Shown piece by piece: positions 32,604 through 56,568 of a stretch of DNA of 64,000 bases (its first letter is position 1; each line of letters opens with the position of its first letter). A program made the position numbers and the translations under genes. The notes under the pieces are model-generated. The model had not been told where the DNA came from. It was given only the letters and a program-made list of their open reading frames with translations, and made no database searches. The DNA is from Bacteroidota bacterium (lineage in GTDB: Bacteria > Bacteroidota > Ignavibacteria > Ignavibacteriales > Ignavibacteriaceae): assembly GCA_021815405.1 (NCBI GenBank), contig JAKAGV010000012.1:1-64000 (forward strand). Reading direction: 5' to 3'.

Positions 32604-33158
32604 ATGTTGGAAAGTGCAAGTCAAATAGAATTTACCATAAAGAAGGAAAGGAAAAAGCTTTTCAACTTTATAAGAAAATATCTTCCGACCAAAGAAGATG
32701 CTGAAGATGTTCTCCAGGACGTATTCTATCAATTCATAAACGGTTTTGAAGAGATAGAATATGCCGACAGAATTTCCGCATGGCTGACTAAGGTTGCGAA
32801 GAATAAAATTATTGACATACAAAGGAAAAAGAAAAACCAACCTCTGCAATCTGAGAAAATTATTTTCCAGGATGAAGATTCGGATGATGCGCTAACACTT
32901 GCGGATATACTTCCGGATTTAAGCGGTCGCCCGGATGAAGTTTATTGGCAAAATTTTATATGGGATGAAATTGAGGCGGCTCTAAACGAATTGCCGGAGG
33001 AACAAAGAGATGTTTTTCTTTTAAATGAATTTGAAGGCTTGAGTTTCAAAGAAATTGCAGATATTAAGCATGAACCTGTAAATACACTGCTATCCAGAAA
33101 AAGATATGCAGTTCTTTATCTAAGAAAAAAATTGAAAAATTTATATAAGGAGTTATAA
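32604..33158 (+). CDS. ECF-type RNA polymerase sigma factor
   Basis: The 184-residue protein has a sigma-70 region 2 (about 10-80: KEDAEDVLQDVFYQFIN, ISAWLTKVAKNKIIDIQRKK) and region 4 (about 125-178: ALNELPEEQRDVFLLNEFEGLSFKEIADI and VNTLLSRKRYAVLYLRKKL). It lacks regions 1 and 3, as ECF factors do. It would redirect RNA polymerase to a dedicated promoter set. The ATG at 32604 gives a normal N-terminus, although the ribosome site is poor. The next gene, a small membrane protein, starts three bases after the stop; no recognisable anti-sigma gene is present, so that small protein is the obvious candidate regulator. Confidence 0.92.
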   Translation: MLESASQIEFTIKKERKKLFNFIRKYLPTKEDAEDVLQDVFYQFINGFEEIEYADRISAWLTKVAKNKIIDIQRKKKNQPLQSEKIIFQDEDSDDALTLADILPDLSGRPDEVYWQNFIWDEIEAALNELPEEQRDVFLLNEFEGLSFKEIADIKHEPVNTLLSRKRYAVLYLRKKLKNLYKEL

Positions 33159-33785: not shown

Positions 33786-33977
33786 TAATATAACCTTCTC
33801 ATTCTACAGTAATATTTATCGGCTTTAAGTCCTTATCGCTTGACAAAGAGCCGACTAGTAAATTATGGTTTCCTTTATTTACAACCCAACACGGCGCTGC
33901 TTGTTGTATTTCATCTATCACCATCAATTTTTAGGGTTTGAAATCTATTTTTTTTTCGTTAAGTTTGAAGCGCAATT

Positions 33978-34070
33978 ATGAAGAAAGAAAATTTAAATAC
34001 TGATTCAAATGCAAGAAGCAACACAGTTCATCATCACCATTGGATTTATGGCTGTGCCGGATTGTGTTGA
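33978..34070 (+). CDS. hisL: Histidine operon leader peptide
   Basis: A 30-codon frame that ends about 70 bases before hisG. It encodes MKKENLNTDSNARSNTV, then four consecutive histidines (codons 18-21, 34029-34040), then WIYGCAGLC and a stop. A run of His codons in a short peptide before a terminator is the hallmark of ribosome-mediated his attenuation: scarcity of charged tRNA-His stalls the ribosome on these codons and lets the antiterminator form. The stop codon lies close after the antiterminator 5' arm, so a ribosome that completes the peptide would cover that arm. Translated only for regulation. Confidence 0.92.
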   Translation: MKKENLNTDSNARSNTVHHHHWIYGCAGLC

Positions 34071-34120
34071 ATTAAATTAAAATAAACGAAATTTACACCC
34101 CGGCAATTGCTGGGGTTTTT
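34055..34120 (+). promoter_or_regulatory. his attenuator: antiterminator and rho-independent terminator
   Basis: The terminator is CCCCGGC (34098-34104), loop AATT, GCTGGGG (34109-34115), followed by TTTTTGCTTTT. TGCCGG (34055-34060, inside the leader peptide frame) is exactly complementary to CCGGCA (34100-34105), the left arm of the terminator, so the two structures exclude each other. With ribosomes stalled at the His codons TGCCGG is free and the terminator is prevented; with ribosomes at the stop codon it is covered and the terminator forms. I did not find a convincing pause hairpin. Confidence 0.88.
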
Positions 34121-34140
34121 GCTTTTAAAGGATGTTTATA

Positions 34141-35007
34141 ATGAATGGCAACCTAAAACTAGCTCTTCAGAAAAAAGGAAGGCTGACTGAAAAATCGCTG
34201 GAACTTCTTCGACTTTGCGGAATGGAAGTGGAAAATTATTCCGAGCGGCTCGTTGTTTCAGTCAGAAATTTTCCGCTGGATATTCTCTTCCTTCGTGACG
34301 ACGATATTCCGGAATATGTACAGGACGGTGTTGCAGATATCGGAATCGTTGGCGAAAATGTTATTTACGAAAAGCAAACCAATACTCCGGTACTCGAGAA
34401 ACTAGGCTTTGGAAGATGCAGCCTTTTATTTGCTTACCCCGAAAATAAAGAATTGAAAAAACTTGAAGATGTTAACGGAAAAACCATTGCAACTACTTAT
34501 CCCAAAATTTTGAAAGACTTTTTGAAATCGAATAACCTAAATGCAAAAGTAATTGAGTTGAGCGGCTCGGTTGAAATTGCGCCGTCGCTCGGAGTTGCAG
34601 ATTTGATATGCGATATTGTTTCAACCGGCAATACTTTGATGATGAACAAGCTGAAAAAATCTTTCAAGGTATTCGACTCGGAAGCTGTTTTGATTTCTGC
34701 TGAGACCACACTCAAAGATGAAAAGAAGAATGAATATTTAACCGATCTTCGCCGGAGAATCCGCTCGGTGATGACTGCGCATTCTTCAAAATATTTGATG
34801 ATGAATATTCCCAAAAATTCGCTTGACAAAATAATCGGAATCATCCCTTCGCTGAAGAGCCCGACAGTATTGCATCTTGCTGAGAAGGATATGCTTGCTG
34901 TTCATGCAGTGATTCCTTCGGATAAGTTCTGGCATATAATTGATGATCTGAAAGCAGCAGGCGCTTCGGGTATATTACTTTTGCCAATTGAAAATTTGAT
35001 TCAATAA
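34141..35007 (+). CDS. hisG: ATP phosphoribosyltransferase, long form
   Basis: First enzyme of histidine biosynthesis: condenses ATP with PRPP. The 288-residue length and the C-terminal regulatory domain (from about residue 215; SLKSPTVLHLAEKDMLAVHAV) mark the long, histidine-feedback-inhibited form that needs no HisZ. Visible motifs are LKLALQKKGRLTEKS at the start, DGVADIGIVGENV, and CDIVSTGNTLMMNKL. The frame also opens at an ATG at 34132, but that codon sits inside the AAAGGATG ribosome site, so 34141 is preferred. It is the first gene after the attenuator. Confidence 0.97.
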   Translation: MNGNLKLALQKKGRLTEKSLELLRLCGMEVENYSERLVVSVRNFPLDILFLRDDDIPEYVQDGVADIGIVGENVIYEKQTNTPVLEKLGFGRCSLLFAYPENKELKKLEDVNGKTIATTYPKILKDFLKSNNLNAKVIELSGSVEIAPSLGVADLICDIVSTGNTLMMNKLKKSFKVFDSEAVLISAETTLKDEKKNEYLTDLRRRIRSVMTAHSSKYLMMNIPKNSLDKIIGIIPSLKSPTVLHLAEKDMLAVHAVIPSDKFWHIIDDLKAAGASGILLLPIENLIQ

Positions 35008-35009
35008 AA

Positions 35010-36293
35010 ATGAGAACGTACTATTTAAATAAATTATCCGACGAAGAAGTAAACGGATTAACTAAGCGTCCGGCAATAAACCTTGAAAAGATTTTTGAAA
35101 CAGTTCAACCGGTTCTTGACGAAATAAAAGCAGCCGGTCTGCAAGCTGCGCTGAAGTACGCTAAAAAGTTTGATGGCTTTGAAGGAAATGAAATAAAAGT
35201 AACTAAAGAAGAGTTTGATAAAGCTGAAGCAGAACTCGCTCCGGAAATTAAGTCCGCGTTAGAAACTGCTTACAATAATATCAAGAAATTCCATCTTAAT
35301 CAGCTTCCATCGAAATATGAAATTGAAACGATAAGCGGAGTTAAATGCTCACGCGAGTACCGGGCGATTGAGAATGTCGGCTTGTACATCCCCGGCGGCA
35401 GTGCAGTTCTTCCTTCAACAATGCTGATGCTTGGCGTTCCTGCTAAGATTGCCGGATGCAAAAGAGTTGTTGTTTGTTCGCCTTCTAAAAACGGAATGAT
35501 AAATTTCCCGCTTTTATATGCAGCTAAGCTTTGTGGTGTTGATGATTTCTATAAAATCGGCGGAGCGCAAGCAATCGGCTTGCTGGCTTATGGTGATGAA
35601 ACAATTCCGAAAGTAAATAAAATTTTGGGTCCGGGTAATCAGTATGTAACAGCTGCAAAACTTATGGTCAGTATTGATATGGATGGATGTTCGATTGATA
35701 TGCCTGCTGGTCCAAGCGAAGTATTAGTTATCGCTGATTCGAATGCTAACCCAGCGTTCGTCGCTGCCGATTTATTATCACAAGCAGAGCATGGAATAGA
35801 TTCTCAAGTTGTTCTGATTACGACAACTTTAGGAATGGCAAACAACATTGAGTTTGAACTAGTAAATCAGCTTGAAAATCTGCCGCGTAAAAATTTTGCG
35901 GCAAAGGCACTCGAAAACTCTTTTACTTTGATATCGGAAAGCATCGACAGTGCAATTGAGTTCAGCAATAAATATGCGCCGGAACATTTGATAATCAACG
36001 TGAAGAACGCCGAGAGCTATGTTTCCAAAATTTTGAACGCGGGTTCGGTTTTCCTCGGAGAATATTCTCCGGAAAGCGCAGGCGATTATGCTTCAGGTAC
36101 AAATCATTCGCTGCCGACATACGGCTACGCAAAAACTATCGGCGGAGTTACCGTAGAATCTTTCCTGAAGTCGATGACAGTTCAACACTTGACTAAAGAA
36201 GGCTTAAAAAATATAGCTACAGCAGTTGAGACTCTTGCAGAAACCGAAGGGCTGCTGGCTCATAAAAATGCAGTTAGCATAAGATTGAAATGA
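35010..36293 (+). CDS. hisD: Histidinol dehydrogenase
   Basis: Zinc enzyme that catalyses the last two oxidations, L-histidinol to histidine, with NAD. The length (427) is standard. Recognisable segments include NVGLYIPGGSAVLPSTMLML, PSKNG, FYKIGGAQAIGLLAYG, KILGPGNQYVTAAK, DMPAGPSEVLVIAD, DLLSQAEHGIDSQVVL with zinc/catalytic Gln and His, and YASGTNHSLPTYGYAK. The gene begins two bases after the hisG stop, consistent with coupled translation. Confidence 0.98.
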   Translation: MRTYYLNKLSDEEVNGLTKRPAINLEKIFETVQPVLDEIKAAGLQAALKYAKKFDGFEGNEIKVTKEEFDKAEAELAPEIKSALETAYNNIKKFHLNQLPSKYEIETISGVKCSREYRAIENVGLYIPGGSAVLPSTMLMLGVPAKIAGCKRVVVCSPSKNGMINFPLLYAAKLCGVDDFYKIGGAQAIGLLAYGDETIPKVNKILGPGNQYVTAAKLMVSIDMDGCSIDMPAGPSEVLVIADSNANPAFVAADLLSQAEHGIDSQVVLITTTLGMANNIEFELVNQLENLPRKNFAAKALENSFTLISESIDSAIEFSNKYAPEHLIINVKNAESYVSKILNAGSVFLGEYSPESAGDYASGTNHSLPTYGYAKTIGGVTVESFLKSMTVQHLTKEGLKNIATAVETLAETEGLLAHKNAVSIRLK

Positions 36294-36300
36294 AATTGCC

Positions 36301-37374
36301 ATGGACATAAAAAATTTAGTGAGAAAAAATATTTTGAATTTAAAGCCGTACACATCGGCACGAGACCTTTATGAAGGAAGCGGAATACTTCTCGACGCAA
36401 ATGAGAATAGCTGGGGTACAACATTCACTAAAATTGAAGATCTCCTTGACGAGAAATTTAATCTTGAGTTAAACCGCTACCCCGATCCGCATCAAAAGGA
36501 AATCAGAGAGCTTGTTGGTAATCTTATTGCTATTCCGAAAGATAATTTATTCTTCGGTGTAGGCTCGGATGAAATTATAGATTTGATGATTAGAATTTTC
36601 TGTAATCCCGGTAAAGATAAAGTAATTATTCCCGAACCGACTTACGGCATGTACAAGGTTGCCTGCGATGTTAATGATATTGAGACAGTTGAAGTACTCC
36701 TGAACGATAATTTTCAGGCTGACCTTAGTGTAATAAGAAATAATTATTCAAGCAACGTCAAAATGATTTTCCTTTGTTCACCAAATAATCCAACCGGAAA
36801 TCTTCTTAATAAAGAAGATGTAATTTTACTTTGCAATGAGTTCAATTCAATAATTGTTGTCGATGAAGCATACATTGACTTCGCCGGCGATGGTTCGATT
36901 ATAAATGAAGTGAAGAACTACCCAAACCTCGTTGTCTTGAGAACTTTTTCAAAAGCCTGGGGATTGGCTGGAATTAGACTTGGCTATTGTGCAGCAAATG
37001 CTGAAATCATTAATCTTCTTTTCAAGATAAAAGCTCCATACAACATTAATTCACTTACACGATTTGCACTTGAAGCTTCAATTAAAAATCTGGAGCTAAA
37101 AGAAAAATACATAAGAGGCATTGTTAAAGAAAGAAAAAGATTGAAGAATCAGCTTGAGACTCTGCCGGATGTAATTACGATTTATAATTCTGATGCAAAT
37201 TTCCTATTGGTGAAATTCAAAAATGCAAGGCGAGTGCAAGCAAAATTAGCTGAAGCCGGAATCATTGTTAGGGATAGAAGTTCCCAGCCTAAACTGGAGA
37301 ACTGCCTTCGAATTTCAATCGGCAGTGAAGAAGAGAATGATATTCTATGGAACGAATTAAAAAAGATTGCATAA
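36301..37374 (+). CDS. hisC: Histidinol-phosphate aminotransferase
   Basis: PLP enzyme converting imidazole-acetol phosphate to histidinol phosphate. The 357 residues carry LLDANENSWG, the LNRYPDPHQ segment, FFGVGSDEIIDL, FLCSPNNPTGN, IIVVDEAYIDFAG and the PLP lysine in LRTFSKAWGLAGIRLGY. All active-site elements appear intact. It starts seven bases after hisD within the operon. Confidence 0.97.
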   Translation: MDIKNLVRKNILNLKPYTSARDLYEGSGILLDANENSWGTTFTKIEDLLDEKFNLELNRYPDPHQKEIRELVGNLIAIPKDNLFFGVGSDEIIDLMIRIFCNPGKDKVIIPEPTYGMYKVACDVNDIETVEVLLNDNFQADLSVIRNNYSSNVKMIFLCSPNNPTGNLLNKEDVILLCNEFNSIIVVDEAYIDFAGDGSIINEVKNYPNLVVLRTFSKAWGLAGIRLGYCAANAEIINLLFKIKAPYNINSLTRFALEASIKNLELKEKYIRGIVKERKRLKNQLETLPDVITIYNSDANFLLVKFKNARRVQAKLAEAGIIVRDRSSQPKLENCLRISIGSEEENDILWNELKKIA

Positions 37375-37389
37375 AAGGCGATTAGAATT

Positions 37390-38286
37390 ATGTACAAAGT
37401 GATTATCGATAAAAAATTCTTAGAACTGAACTCAGAAATTTCTGCCGGACTGATTTCCAGCATGAAGAAATTATTGCAGAGGAATTTCTGTATTGAAATA
37501 AATGATTTCATTCCAGGAAATACCGGCTGCTTAGATAAAATTCTTCAACTTGAAGGAATCAATATTAATCCTTCCGGAAAAGATAGTTTTGAAAAAGTTT
37601 TCTTAATTACTTCCGAGAAAACTTCGGGAAGAAACTCAATCTTAGTTCAAAAGAAAAGTAAAATCAACACATTCGAAAAAGCAATCAATCAAATTTTAAT
37701 AGACCTTCGCAAATCAGTACAACATAGACAAACAAAAGAAACCGATATAAAAGTTGAACTTTCCCTTGACGGCAGAAGTGAATCAAGTATAAACACCGGA
37801 ATTGGATTTTTCGACCATATGTTAGAACAAATTGCCAAGCATGCAAACATAAATTTGAAAATAAAAGTTAAAGGTGATTTACACGTAGATGAACATCATA
37901 CGGTTGAAGATGTTGGAATAACATTTGGCACTGCTTTAAGCGAGGCACTCGGCAATAAACTCGGTATTAAGCGCTACGGATTTTATCTCCCGATGGATGA
38001 TTCAATTGCAGAATGTGCTATCGACCTCGGAGGAAGAGCGTACCTAAATTTCAATTGTAAGTTTGAAAGAGAAAAAGTTGGTGAGTTCCCTACCGAACTT
38101 ACGGAAGAATTTTTTAGAGGATTAGCCTCGGGATTGAAAGCAAACATTTTTATTAAAGCAAAAGGTAAGAACGACCACCATAAGATCGAGGCGATATTCA
38201 AAGCTTTTGCTAAATCATTAAATGAAGCATGCAGACTTGATGAGCGCAGTGAAGGCATGCTTCCTTCAACAAAGGGCGTTTTATGA
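37390..38286 (+). CDS. hisB: Imidazoleglycerol-phosphate dehydratase with a divergent N-terminal domain
   Basis: Residues about 112-298 are a complete IGP dehydratase, the sixth-step enzyme: GFFDHMLEQIAKHANINL, the Mn-binding HHTVED (169-174), and the second metal half DHHKIEAIFKAFAKSL. The first 110 residues are unusual. In Bacteroidota and enterobacteria the HisB N-terminus is a HAD histidinol-phosphate phosphatase starting with a D-x-D-G-T motif. Here the opening is KVIIDKKFLEL, without the catalytic aspartates, and the domain is about 50 residues shorter. It is either a degenerate HAD remnant or an unrelated extension. No ribosome site within the frame suggests a shorter start. Overlaps hisH by four bases. 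Confidence 0.93.
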   Translation: MYKVIIDKKFLELNSEISAGLISSMKKLLQRNFCIEINDFIPGNTGCLDKILQLEGININPSGKDSFEKVFLITSEKTSGRNSILVQKKSKINTFEKAINQILIDLRKSVQHRQTKETDIKVELSLDGRSESSINTGIGFFDHMLEQIAKHANINLKIKVKGDLHVDEHHTVEDVGITFGTALSEALGNKLGIKRYGFYLPMDDSIAECAIDLGGRAYLNFNCKFEREKVGEFPTELTEEFFRGLASGLKANIFIKAKGKNDHHKIEAIFKAFAKSLNEACRLDERSEGMLPSTKGVL

Positions 38287-38873
38287 TTGCATTAATTGAT
38301 TACGGCTCAGGCAATGTAGCTTCTGTGGTGAATGCGCTGACCGAGCTGAAAGAAGAATTTAAAGTTACAAACAACGAAGTGGAGATTTGCAAAGCAGATA
38401 AAATAATTTTCCCCGGTGTAGGAGAAGCTTCATTTGCTATCCGTCAGTTACACATGCTGAATTTGTTTTCCGCACTGCGAATGATAAAAAAGCCGATGCT
38501 TGGAATCTGCCTTGGCTTGCAGTTAATGGCAGACCATTCCACCGAAGGGAACGTTGCTTGTCTCGGGATATTCCGTGTAAACGTCGAGAAATTTGATCCC
38601 GCAAAAACAAAGGTGCCGCACATGGGATGGAACGACATTCAGATAAAATCATCCAGCAAGTTATTCAACGGTATAGAAAGCGGAGAACGGTTTTATTTTG
38701 CAAACTCTTTTTACATACCGGTTAACGTATGCACTACTGCAGTAACCGATAACAACGGTACACTTTTTTCTTCAGCAATGGAGAAGGAAAATTTTTACGG
38801 TGTACAATTTCATCCCGAAAAATCCGGCGATGCAGGGCTTAGGCTTATAAAAAATTTTATAGAATTATGCTAA
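38283..38873 (+). CDS. hisH: Imidazole glycerol phosphate synthase, glutaminase subunit
   Basis: Class I glutamine amidotransferase that feeds ammonia to HisF. The 196 residues include IALIDYGSGNVASVVNAL, PGVGEASFA, the nucleophile elbow MLGICLGLQLM (catalytic Cys near 76), PHMGWNDI, and the His-Glu pair in VQFHPEKSGDAG. The overlap with hisB (ATGA) and with hisA (seven bases) shows tight translational coupling. Confidence 0.97.
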   Translation: MIALIDYGSGNVASVVNALTELKEEFKVTNNEVEICKADKIIFPGVGEASFAIRQLHMLNLFSALRMIKKPMLGICLGLQLMADHSTEGNVACLGIFRVNVEKFDPAKTKVPHMGWNDIQIKSSSKLFNGIESGERFYFANSFYIPVNVCTTAVTDNNGTLFSSAMEKENFYGVQFHPEKSGDAGLRLIKNFIELC

Positions 38874-39586
38874 TAATACCGGCAATAGATATTTATGATA
38901 ATTCCATCGTAAGATTGGAGAGAGGCGACTTTGACAATATAACATATTATAAGAATTCTCCTCTCCAGCAGGCGAAAATATTTGAATCTCACGGTTTCGG
39001 AATTATTCATATTGTTGACCTCCTTGGTTCAAAAAGCGGAAAGTTAACTTCGCTTGAATCGGTTGAGAAAATAAAAAGCGAAACAAAATTACAAGTTGAA
39101 TTCGGAGGCGGAATTAGAGATGTTAAAACTGTTGCCGAGCTTTTTAATGCTGGAGTTGATTTTGTTGTCATCGGAACTCTTCCTGTAAAGAATAAAAAAG
39201 AATTTGAATTGATAATTAATAATTATCCATCGGAAAAAATTATTGCAGTCATAGATTCGATAAATGAAATGCTTAAGATAGGCGGATGGACTGAAAGTAC
39301 GAAGATTTCAATCTACGATCATATCGAATATTGCTCTGGACTTGGAATAAAAAAATTTCTTTGTACCGATATTTCAAAAGATGGAATGCTTACAGGCACT
39401 AACATCGATCTTTATAAAAAAATTATGAAAAACTATCCGGAGATAGATCTAATTGCTTCCGGAGGCGTTAAAGATATTGATGATATTGAAAAGTTAAATA
39501 AACTTAATCCGTATGCAGTTGTAGTCGGCAAAGCTATTTATGAAGAGAAGATTGATTTGAAGGAGCTCGCAAAAGTTGCTGTGTAA
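38867..39586 (+). CDS. hisA: ProFAR isomerase (1-(5-phosphoribosyl)-5-[...]imidazole-4-carboxamide isomerase)
   Basis: TIM-barrel isomerase of step four. The 239 residues start LIIPAIDIYDNSIVRLERGD with the first catalytic Asp of PAIDI. They also contain IIHIVDLLGSKSGK, LQVEFGGGIRD, the second active-site region TDISKDGMLTGTNI, and DLIASGGVKDIDDI. The HisA/HisF half-barrel duplication is evident from the phosphate-binding GGGIR and SGGV segments. It overlaps hisF by 11 bases. Confidence 0.96.
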   Translation: MLIIPAIDIYDNSIVRLERGDFDNITYYKNSPLQQAKIFESHGFGIIHIVDLLGSKSGKLTSLESVEKIKSETKLQVEFGGGIRDVKTVAELFNAGVDFVVIGTLPVKNKKEFELIINNYPSEKIIAVIDSINEMLKIGGWTESTKISIYDHIEYCSGLGIKKFLCTDISKDGMLTGTNIDLYKKIMKNYPEIDLIASGGVKDIDDIEKLNKLNPYAVVVGKAIYEEKIDLKELAKVAV

Positions 39587-40331
39587 AAGAATAATACCAT
39601 GCCTGGACGTTAAGGATGGCAGAGTTGTTAAAGGGACCAACTTTATAAATTTAATTGATGCAGGATCACCGGTTGAACTTGCAGAAAGATATTCTAAAGA
39701 AGGTGCGGATGAACTGGTGTTCCTGGATATTACTGCTTCTTCGGAGAAAAGAAAAACTCTTGTTGAATTAGTAAAGGATGTTGCAAAAGCAATTCGGATT
39801 CCTTTTACTGTCGGCGGAGGAATTTCTGAGCTGAGCGATATTGAACTGTTATTGAAAGCCGGTGCGGATAAGGTCTCTTTGAATTCTTCGATTGTAAAAA
39901 ATCCGGAACTTATAACCAAGGCTTCACGGCAATTCGGAAGCCAGGCTGTTGTTGCGGCTATTGATGTAAAGTATAATGGAACAGAATATAAAGTTTACAT
40001 CAAAGGAGGAAGAGAAGAAACGGACTTGATTGGAATGGAATGGTGTAAACGTGTAGCTGAACTTGGTGCCGGCGAAATCTTACTAACCTCAATGGACCGC
40101 GACGGAACTAAAGAAGGTTATGATTTAAAATTCTTGAAGGAATTATCCTCGGTTGTTAGTGTTCCCGTTATCGCTTCCGGCGGTGCCGGAAAGAAAGAAG
40201 ATTTCTTAAGTGCATTTAAAGATGCAAATGTGGACGCATGCCTGGCAGCAAGCTTGTTTCATTTCAATATTCTTCCTATCAAAGATCTAAAATACTATTT
40301 GAAAGAAAACAATGTGGCGGTAAGAATCTAA
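39576..40331 (+). CDS. hisF: Imidazole glycerol phosphate synthase, cyclase subunit
   Basis: TIM-barrel cyclase that, with HisH, closes the imidazole ring and releases AICAR. The 251-residue sequence has the canonical KRIIPCLDVKDGRVVKGTNF start (first catalytic Asp), TVGGGISELSDI, DKVSLNSS, the second catalytic region TSMDRDGTKEGYD and VIASGGAGKKEDF. The start codon is TTG at 39576: it gives ML-C-KRIIPCLDV, aligned with the family's MLAKRIIPCLDV, and there is no ATG upstream. The overlap with the end of hisA supports this. Confidence 0.96.
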   Translation: MLCKRIIPCLDVKDGRVVKGTNFINLIDAGSPVELAERYSKEGADELVFLDITASSEKRKTLVELVKDVAKAIRIPFTVGGGISELSDIELLLKAGADKVSLNSSIVKNPELITKASRQFGSQAVVAAIDVKYNGTEYKVYIKGGREETDLIGMEWCKRVAELGAGEILLTSMDRDGTKEGYDLKFLKELSSVVSVPVIASGGAGKKEDFLSAFKDANVDACLAASLFHFNILPIKDLKYYLKENNVAVRI

Positions 40332-40388
40332 GAAAAATTATTATAGGTTTTAATAAACATCAACATTATGAATTAGGAGACATTTAAA

Positions 40389-41000
40389 TTGGATAAGAAT
40401 GATATTAGTAAATTGAACTTTGAAAAACTTAACGGATTGATCCCGGCAATTGTAATTGACAATGCAAATAACCAGGTGCTGATGCTTGGTTTCATGAATA
40501 AAGCTTCACTCGAAAAGACTTTCGAATCGAAGCTAGTAACATTTTACAGTCGCACCCGAAAAACTTTGTGGACAAAAGGAGTAACTTCAGGAAATTACTT
40601 AAATCTTATAGATATTAAGCCGGATTGTGACAATGACACTTTATTAATCTTTGCTAAACCAGATGGCAATACCTGCCACACAGGCAAATACTCTTGCTTT
40701 GATGTGCCGGATATTCCTGCTACTAATTTTTTAAACAAACTTTTTGATTTAATAAAAGACAGACGCATGACGATGCCGGAAAATTCTTATACTTCTGAAT
40801 TATTCAGATCAGGCTCAGATAGAATTATTCAGAAAGTCGGCGAGGAATCTGTTGAGACAGTCATCGCTGCAAAGAATCGCGACAAGAAAGAAATAATCAA
40901 TGAGACTTCAGACTTGATCTATCATCTTTTTGTTATGCTTGCAGACCAAGGAATTGAGCTTAGCGATATCGTGAAGAATCTTCAGAAAAGATCAAAATAA
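40389..41000 (+). CDS. hisIE: Bifunctional phosphoribosyl-AMP cyclohydrolase / phosphoribosyl-ATP pyrophosphatase
   Basis: Performs steps two and three in one 203-residue chain. The N-terminal HisI half (about 10-108) holds LMLGFMNKASLEKT, LWTKGVTSGN, the Zn/Mg motif DCDNDTLL and NTCHTGKYSCF. The C-terminal HisE half (about 115-203) holds SYTSELFRSG, IIQKVGEESVETVIAAKN and ETSDLIYHLFVMLADQGI. The start is a TTG at 40389 preceded by TAGGAGA at good spacing; no ATG is available. It lies 57 bases after hisF and is the last gene of the operon; no terminator was found after it. Confidence 0.96.
   Translation: MDKNDISKLNFEKLNGLIPAIVIDNANNQVLMLGFMNKASLEKTFESKLVTFYSRTRKTLWTKGVTSGNYLNLIDIKPDCDNDTLLIFAKPDGNTCHTGKYSCFDVPDIPATNFLNKLFDLIKDRRMTMPENSYTSELFRSGSDRIIQKVGEESVETVIAAKNRDKKEIINETSDLIYHLFVMLADQGIELSDIVKNLQKRSK

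Positions 41001-54345: not shown

Positions 54346-56568
<2,223 letters not shown>

Follow-up and report, generated by a model that had tools for sequence, protein, structure and literature searches.

What controls the histidine biosynthesis genes in this Ignavibacteria genome, from a little-studied bacterial group? The window, meaning the whole stretch of 64,000 nucleotides that was analyzed, is part of contig C30; the genome has 31 contigs totaling 4.97 Mb. The closest named HisG relatives are Ignavibacteria, Ignavibacteriales, and Ignavibacteriaceae records, and others are titled just Bacteroidetes. Open reading frames (ORFs) and Pfam/NCBIfam matches reveal a complete hisGDCBHAFIE operon downstream of a short leader ORF and a terminator, all on the forward strand, to which window coordinates refer unless noted. 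The first structural gene, hisG (34141 to 35007; TIGR00070 and PF01634), has its start set at ATG 34141, with an alternative start at 34132, and the rest of the operon (35010 to 41000) comprises hisD (35010 to 36293), hisC (36301 to 37374), hisB (37390 to 38286), hisH (38283 to 38873), hisA (38867 to 39586), hisF (39576 to 40331), and hisIE (40389 to 41000). Judged by family matches, these genes synthesize the very amino acid that the leader would sense. Upstream of the leader, 32604 to 33158 encodes a sigma factor of the sigma-70 family, with regions 2 and 4. The first 88 residues of HisB (37390 to 37653) lie outside all Pfam/NCBIfam matches, the remainder being an IGP dehydratase; this N-terminal part is where bifunctional HisB would carry a phosphatase domain.

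The leader ORF (33978 to 34070) runs from an ATG at 33978 to a TGA at 34068 to 34070 and has 30 codons plus stop, with the predicted translation MKKENLNTDSNARSNTVHHHHWIYGCAGLC. Four consecutive His codons, CAT CAT CAC CAT (34029 to 34040), form the proposed ribosome stall site, and an intrinsic terminator lies between the leader and hisG. The original prediction took this arrangement for a ribosome-mediated his attenuator, and direct reading finds its coordinates for the leader with four His codons, the TGCCGG/CCGGCA complementarity, and the terminator to be exact. The His run exceeds chance: four CAY codons in a row occur once in the window on both strands, and just two ORFs of up to 60 codons, the leader and one at 55742 to 55840 on the minus strand, carry 4 or more His within 6 residues, against one in total in 20 simulated 64-kb sequences. 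The RNA from 33978 to 34125 also folds better than 200/200 shuffles (z = -3.24). A terminator scan of 1.2 kb gave 1 match versus a shuffle mean of 0.7, no more than chance, so the weight of the window terminator comes from conservation in relatives.

The terminator (34097 to 34120; -14.4 kcal/mol), identified by the scan and by relatives, reads ACCCCGGC-AATT-GCTGGGGT followed by a T-run, with a stem of 34097 to 34104 and 34109 to 34116, a loop of 34105 to 34108, and the T-run at 34116 to 34120. Its left arm holds CCGGCA (34100 to 34105), the complement of a switch strand, TGCCGG (34055 to 34060), that starts the antiterminator 14 nt past the last His codon. The antiterminator hairpin (34055 to 34105; -13.9 kcal/mol) is composed of three helices, TGCCGG:CCGGCA, GTGT:ACAC, and GAATT:AATTT, and is longer than the 6 bp originally noticed. 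It has a z-score of -2.79 versus tail shuffles, with 0/50 shuffles equally stable. In minimum free energy (MFE) folds, a protector helix between CAACACA (34019 to 34025) and TGTGTTG (34063 to 34069) encloses the His codons, and its second strand shares bases with the stop codon and with part of the antiterminator stem. The antiterminator and the terminator are mutually exclusive, and the switch strand is placed so that a ribosome stalled at the His codons would leave it free and a ribosome at the stop codon would cover it, a placement judged with the size of the ribosome footprint.

Four elements of the resulting model are predictions: that the promoter is used, that the ribosome stalls, that transcription terminates, and in which direction the operon responds. 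Transcription would begin a few bases upstream of the leader ATG, with a ribosome trailing RNA polymerase along the leader. If charged tRNA-His runs short, the ribosome would stall on the four His codons and cover or disrupt the first protector strand; TGCCGG, just downstream of the ribosome footprint, would stay free and, with the bases that follow, pair with the emerging left arm of the terminator, allowing read-through into hisGDCBHAFIE. With ample histidine, the ribosome would reach the stop codon and cover TGCCGG, so that the terminator at 34097 to 34120 forms and transcription ends. Without a ribosome, CAACACA:TGTGTTG would hide much of TGCCGG, and termination would be favored as well.

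Is this arrangement kept in relatives? The original prediction had proposed searching related genomes for the His run and the mutually exclusive stems; both are conserved, and the arms of the switch covary. Within the family, HisG was matched at 44 places in 43 of 80 genomes, three of which were set aside: G014, G005 (HisG start missing), and a weak second place in G069. A leader was defined as an ORF of <90 codons that has 3 or more His within 8 residues and ends 40 to 140 nt upstream of hisG; 40 of the 41 remaining loci had one. Two further families of the order contributed 28 matched genomes, and after G349 was dropped (start missing), all 27 loci had a leader. His-run leaders therefore stand upstream of hisG at 67 of 68 loci in the order, compared to a mean of 0.55 and a maximum of 2 in 20 rounds of dinucleotide shuffling of the 68 upstream sequences, and 2/68 on the reverse strand. 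The sole order-level hisG without a His leader is L053 (genome G077). Two loci counted among the 67, L052 and L054, are doubtful, with weak hairpins and no clear switch pairing.

After removal of exact duplicates, 77 leaders were available, seven of them from named records, and a hairpin scan placed a hairpin with a T-rich tail after every one. An order-level set of 71 was obtained by dropping six: the doubtful L052 and L054, and L087, L089, L090, and L124, which lie outside the order. A terminator-like hairpin occurs in 71/71 of these versus 20% of shuffled intervals, and each of the 71 outscores all 10 of its own shuffles. The antiterminator, called when the leader end forms a helix with at least 4 bases of the terminator left arm in the RNA as it stands before the right arm appears, is found in the MFE fold of 71/71 versus 42% with shuffled tails. 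Its stability relative to shuffles has a mean z of -2.41 (65/71 below -1 and 41/71 below -2). A gapless switch duplex of at least 5 bp exists in 66/71 leaders, the other five relying on interrupted helices. The antiterminator starts a median of 16 nt past the last His codon (10th to 90th percentile, 7 to 18; n = 71).

Across the 77 leaders, the mean energies of the antiterminator and the terminator are -14.1 versus -14.2 kcal/mol, and the antiterminator is the more stable of the two in 35; neither dominates on energy alone. The protector is the weaker arm of the model. In the window, its helix is just weakly more stable than shuffles (z = -0.93), and the leader RNA before the terminator has a mean z of -1.48 in the 77 leaders, with 49 below -1 and 11 above 0. 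The switch strand is partly paired with upstream RNA in 16/17 of the folds printed.

Do the two arms of the switch evolve together? The switch strands score 16.5 with their own terminators and 13.8 (standard deviation, 0.28) when permuted between the 77 loci, with 0/5,000 permutations as high, in a test that breaks relatedness along with pairing and ignores shared ancestry. Tail shuffles score 11.7, and by the gapless score 43/77 loci individually beat 95% of their own tail shuffles. On the HisG tree (71 rows), one switch base and its partner are C-G in 36, U-A in 8, U-G in 5, and C-A in 0, and 22 are unclassifiable, the state being taken where possible from the best-pairing stretch, which favors paired states. 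The U-A state needs three changes on the tree, in L017/L061, in a five-row group (L031/L032/L104/L106/L110), and in L041; a history of one gain and two losses is possible.

The terminator might instead belong to an unrelated upstream transcript or act as a constitutive partial terminator, the His-rich ORF being either chance or a functional small protein. A terminator alone would have the same appearance, and small His-rich peptides are able to bind metals. However, leader and terminator co-occur upstream of hisG in the order together with the covarying alternative pairing, and the switch core shifts reading frame or falls past the stop codon while the RNA is kept, which argues against a small protein. 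We consider this explanation highly improbable. The core, NYCGG, could be located in 59 of the 71 leaders. Within the ORF it occupies frame 0 in 38 leaders, frame 1 in 14, and frame 2 in 2, and in five others (L047, L049, L104, L116, and L119) it follows the stop by 1 to 2 nt. The occurrence of the switch strand in differing frames or past the stop indicates that the RNA is kept, not the peptide, whose ends vary with the frame of the core (for example, AGLC, CRR, and AGK). A second role had been suggested for the Cys-rich tail of the window peptide. After the His run, 41 of the 71 leaders have no Cys, 29 have one, and solely the window's leader has two; conservation speaks against a function of the Cys residues, and the codons of the tail are accounted for by the antiterminator and protector strands. 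This candidate was rejected, a function of the Cys residues appearing unlikely from these comparisons. The choice between stall and stop codon put forward originally is supported by the conservation, by the covarying arms, and by where the switch strand lies; the locus very probably controls the his operon by ribosome-mediated transcription attenuation.

The predicted attenuator would be transcribed from a promoter of the phylum's own type. The sequence TAAGTTTG (33960 to 33967), which begins 18 nt upstream of the leader ATG, is an exact match to TAnnTTTG, the -7 box that the primary sigma factor of Bacteroidota uses, as given in parts of one study (PMC7366714), and the position of this box from -12 to -5, as stated in passages of another (PMC9723704), goes with a predicted transcript start at ~33972 and a 5' untranslated region (UTR) of ~6 nt. 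Some ~3.7% of 5' UTRs in B. thetaiotaomicron are <10 nt, according to a section of the former (PMC7366714). TAnnTTTG starts 8 to 35 nt upstream of the leader ATG in 38/77 leaders (35/71 in the order-level set), compared to a mean of 2.8 and a maximum of 7 in mononucleotide shuffles. A sigma-70-like match at 33840 to 33869 (10/12) would imply a 5' UTR of ~100 nt instead of 6; 5 such matches were found versus 4.1 in shuffles, and a sigma-70 promoter was set aside as these matches are at chance level. The Bacteroidota box is preferred because it recurs at the same position in relatives.

How does this element compare with known systems? The enterobacterial his attenuator hisL (Rfam His_leader, RF00514) likewise has a His-run leader upstream of hisG, a choice between antiterminator and terminator, and the his operon downstream. 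In E. coli, hisL has seven His codons in a row, whereas the leader here has four, lacks an Rfam match, and would sit behind a Bacteroidota box with a 5' UTR of ~6 bases. No Rfam family, T-box and His_leader included, reaches its gathering score in the window, and a permissive Rfam scan of 33850 to 34200 with E values up to 5 returned neither of the two. A T-box or another riboswitch binding tRNA or a ligand could in principle act on the same terminator without translation being involved, and T-boxes regulate his genes in Firmicutes and Actinobacteria, as parts of a published account describe (PMC9413887). A T-box or known Rfam element was rejected for want of either a gathering-score or a permissive match, and the conserved His run also counts against a riboswitch, a reading that we regard as extremely unlikely.

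The distribution of His leaders outside the order is uneven. Elsewhere in the class, where 69 genomes were matched, short His leaders were found at 3 of the 22 loci read (L087, L089, and L090), so that the His leader is not class-wide. Long His-containing frames in L083, L085, and L086 were taken for the upstream gene, and L088 has just 76 nt of upstream sequence. In the phylum, HisG was matched in 252 of 296 genomes, and 60 upstream sequences were picked by hand, mostly one per genus with listed coordinates, a nonrandom set that leaves out L131 to L140. As raw counts, a short His-rich ORF is present in 53 of these 60, of which 39 also have a T-run hairpin; several of the cases look weak (e.g., L172, L195, L196, and L200). 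In family f41, the leaders have a different switch strand; in L184, for instance, reading by eye pairs CTCAAGCG with CGTTTGAG. In L055 to L058 and L060, a sequence between the T-run and hisG, TTTACTCAG, is perfectly or almost perfectly complementary to the left arm and loop of the terminator, CTGAGTAAA, which may hint at one more alternative hairpin; comparable complements were seen by eye in some f41 loci, such as L174.

Could the stalled ribosome affect hisG translation or the access of Rho rather than intrinsic termination? In family f43, another family of the phylum, His-rich leaders precede hisG at 9 of 10 loci (L157 to L163, L165, and L166; absent in L164), and a T-run hairpin was found at none of these 9, which means that other outputs probably exist; the output there is perhaps Rho-dependent or translational. 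In the window, by contrast, a GC-rich stem followed by a T-run overlaps the strand that the switch strand pairs with, and such a hairpin follows 71/71 order-level leaders. For the locus studied here, an output other than intrinsic termination seems very unlikely. The f43 leaders mostly have a GTG start a few bases past a box resembling TATNTTTG, and a pyrimidine-rich stretch follows.

Is his the sole operon controlled in this way? In the same genome (G000, contig C21), trpE is preceded by a leader, MKKFSGTYYNTNKNLNLNWWWWFGMCNNMTQ, and an intrinsic terminator (locus L141). The ORF, at position 681 of that locus, has 31 codons with WWWW, and the terminator (804 to 832) lies 27 nt past its stop. 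TrpE-like proteins were matched in 60 of the 61 family genomes searched, and among the best 30 trpE loci of the 60, an ORF with at least 2 Trp in 8 residues and a nearby T-run hairpin were present in 30/30. In these leaders, the Trp residues are nonadjacent in L228 and form a mere pair in L219, L222, L231, and L235. The putative trp attenuator resembles that of his in placing a leader with consecutive regulating codons before a terminator, but it uses Trp codons and a different terminator sequence, the likeness being one of leader and terminator alone. No terminator was seen at the two remaining chorismate-binding genes (L142 and L143), and no leader with a terminator was recognized in the stretches read around leuA/ilv (L144, L145, and L206) or the homoserine dehydrogenase gene (L238). 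The single hairpin with a T-tail in L144, at 3526 and found in L145 too, is contained in a long open frame.

Leader-peptide attenuation had been thought less well described in this lineage. We found no report of it in Ignavibacteria as judged by titles, in a coverage that takes in few subscription journals, and that part of the claim stands. For the phylum it does not, as passages of a flavobacterial study already report strong clues of leader-peptide attenuation upstream of amino acid operons (PMC9723704). The same passages describe a structured element upstream of hisG in Flavobacteriaceae, present in other genera of that family and lacking an Rfam hit (PMC9723704), which is like the present one in phylum, in position upstream of hisG, and in the missing Rfam hit, a likeness of description and not of sequence. 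In 2010, leader-peptide systems were unknown outside Proteobacteria and Actinobacteria to the knowledge of the authors of one paper, who proposed a case in bacilli, as portions of that paper state (PMC2965389). The word "leader" is absent from the main text, as accessed, of a survey of his genes in this superphylum (PMC8305728). The his attenuator thus appears to be a well-supported instance of a known mechanism, one already reported for flavobacteria of the phylum, with no earlier report found in Ignavibacteria.

A broader reading can be offered tentatively, with slightly less than even confidence. Leader-peptide attenuation might be the common ancestral control of his, and in this Ignavibacteria family also of trp, across Bacteroidota, operating from nearly leaderless ORFs that begin with ATG or GTG just a few bases past the transcript start, with ribosomes loading at the extreme 5' end, and with the terminator swapped for another, perhaps Rho-dependent, output in at least one family. 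The phylum relies little on Shine-Dalgarno sites, according to sections of the flavobacterial study (PMC9723704). The predicted 6-base 5' UTR raises a question: how would ribosomes in such a phylum load fast enough to match the pace of the polymerase? The element itself is a covariation-supported RNA without an Rfam match. A textbook form of control best known from Proteobacteria and Actinobacteria would be the usual arrangement upstream of the his operon in this Ignavibacteria order, with a counterpart that reads Trp.
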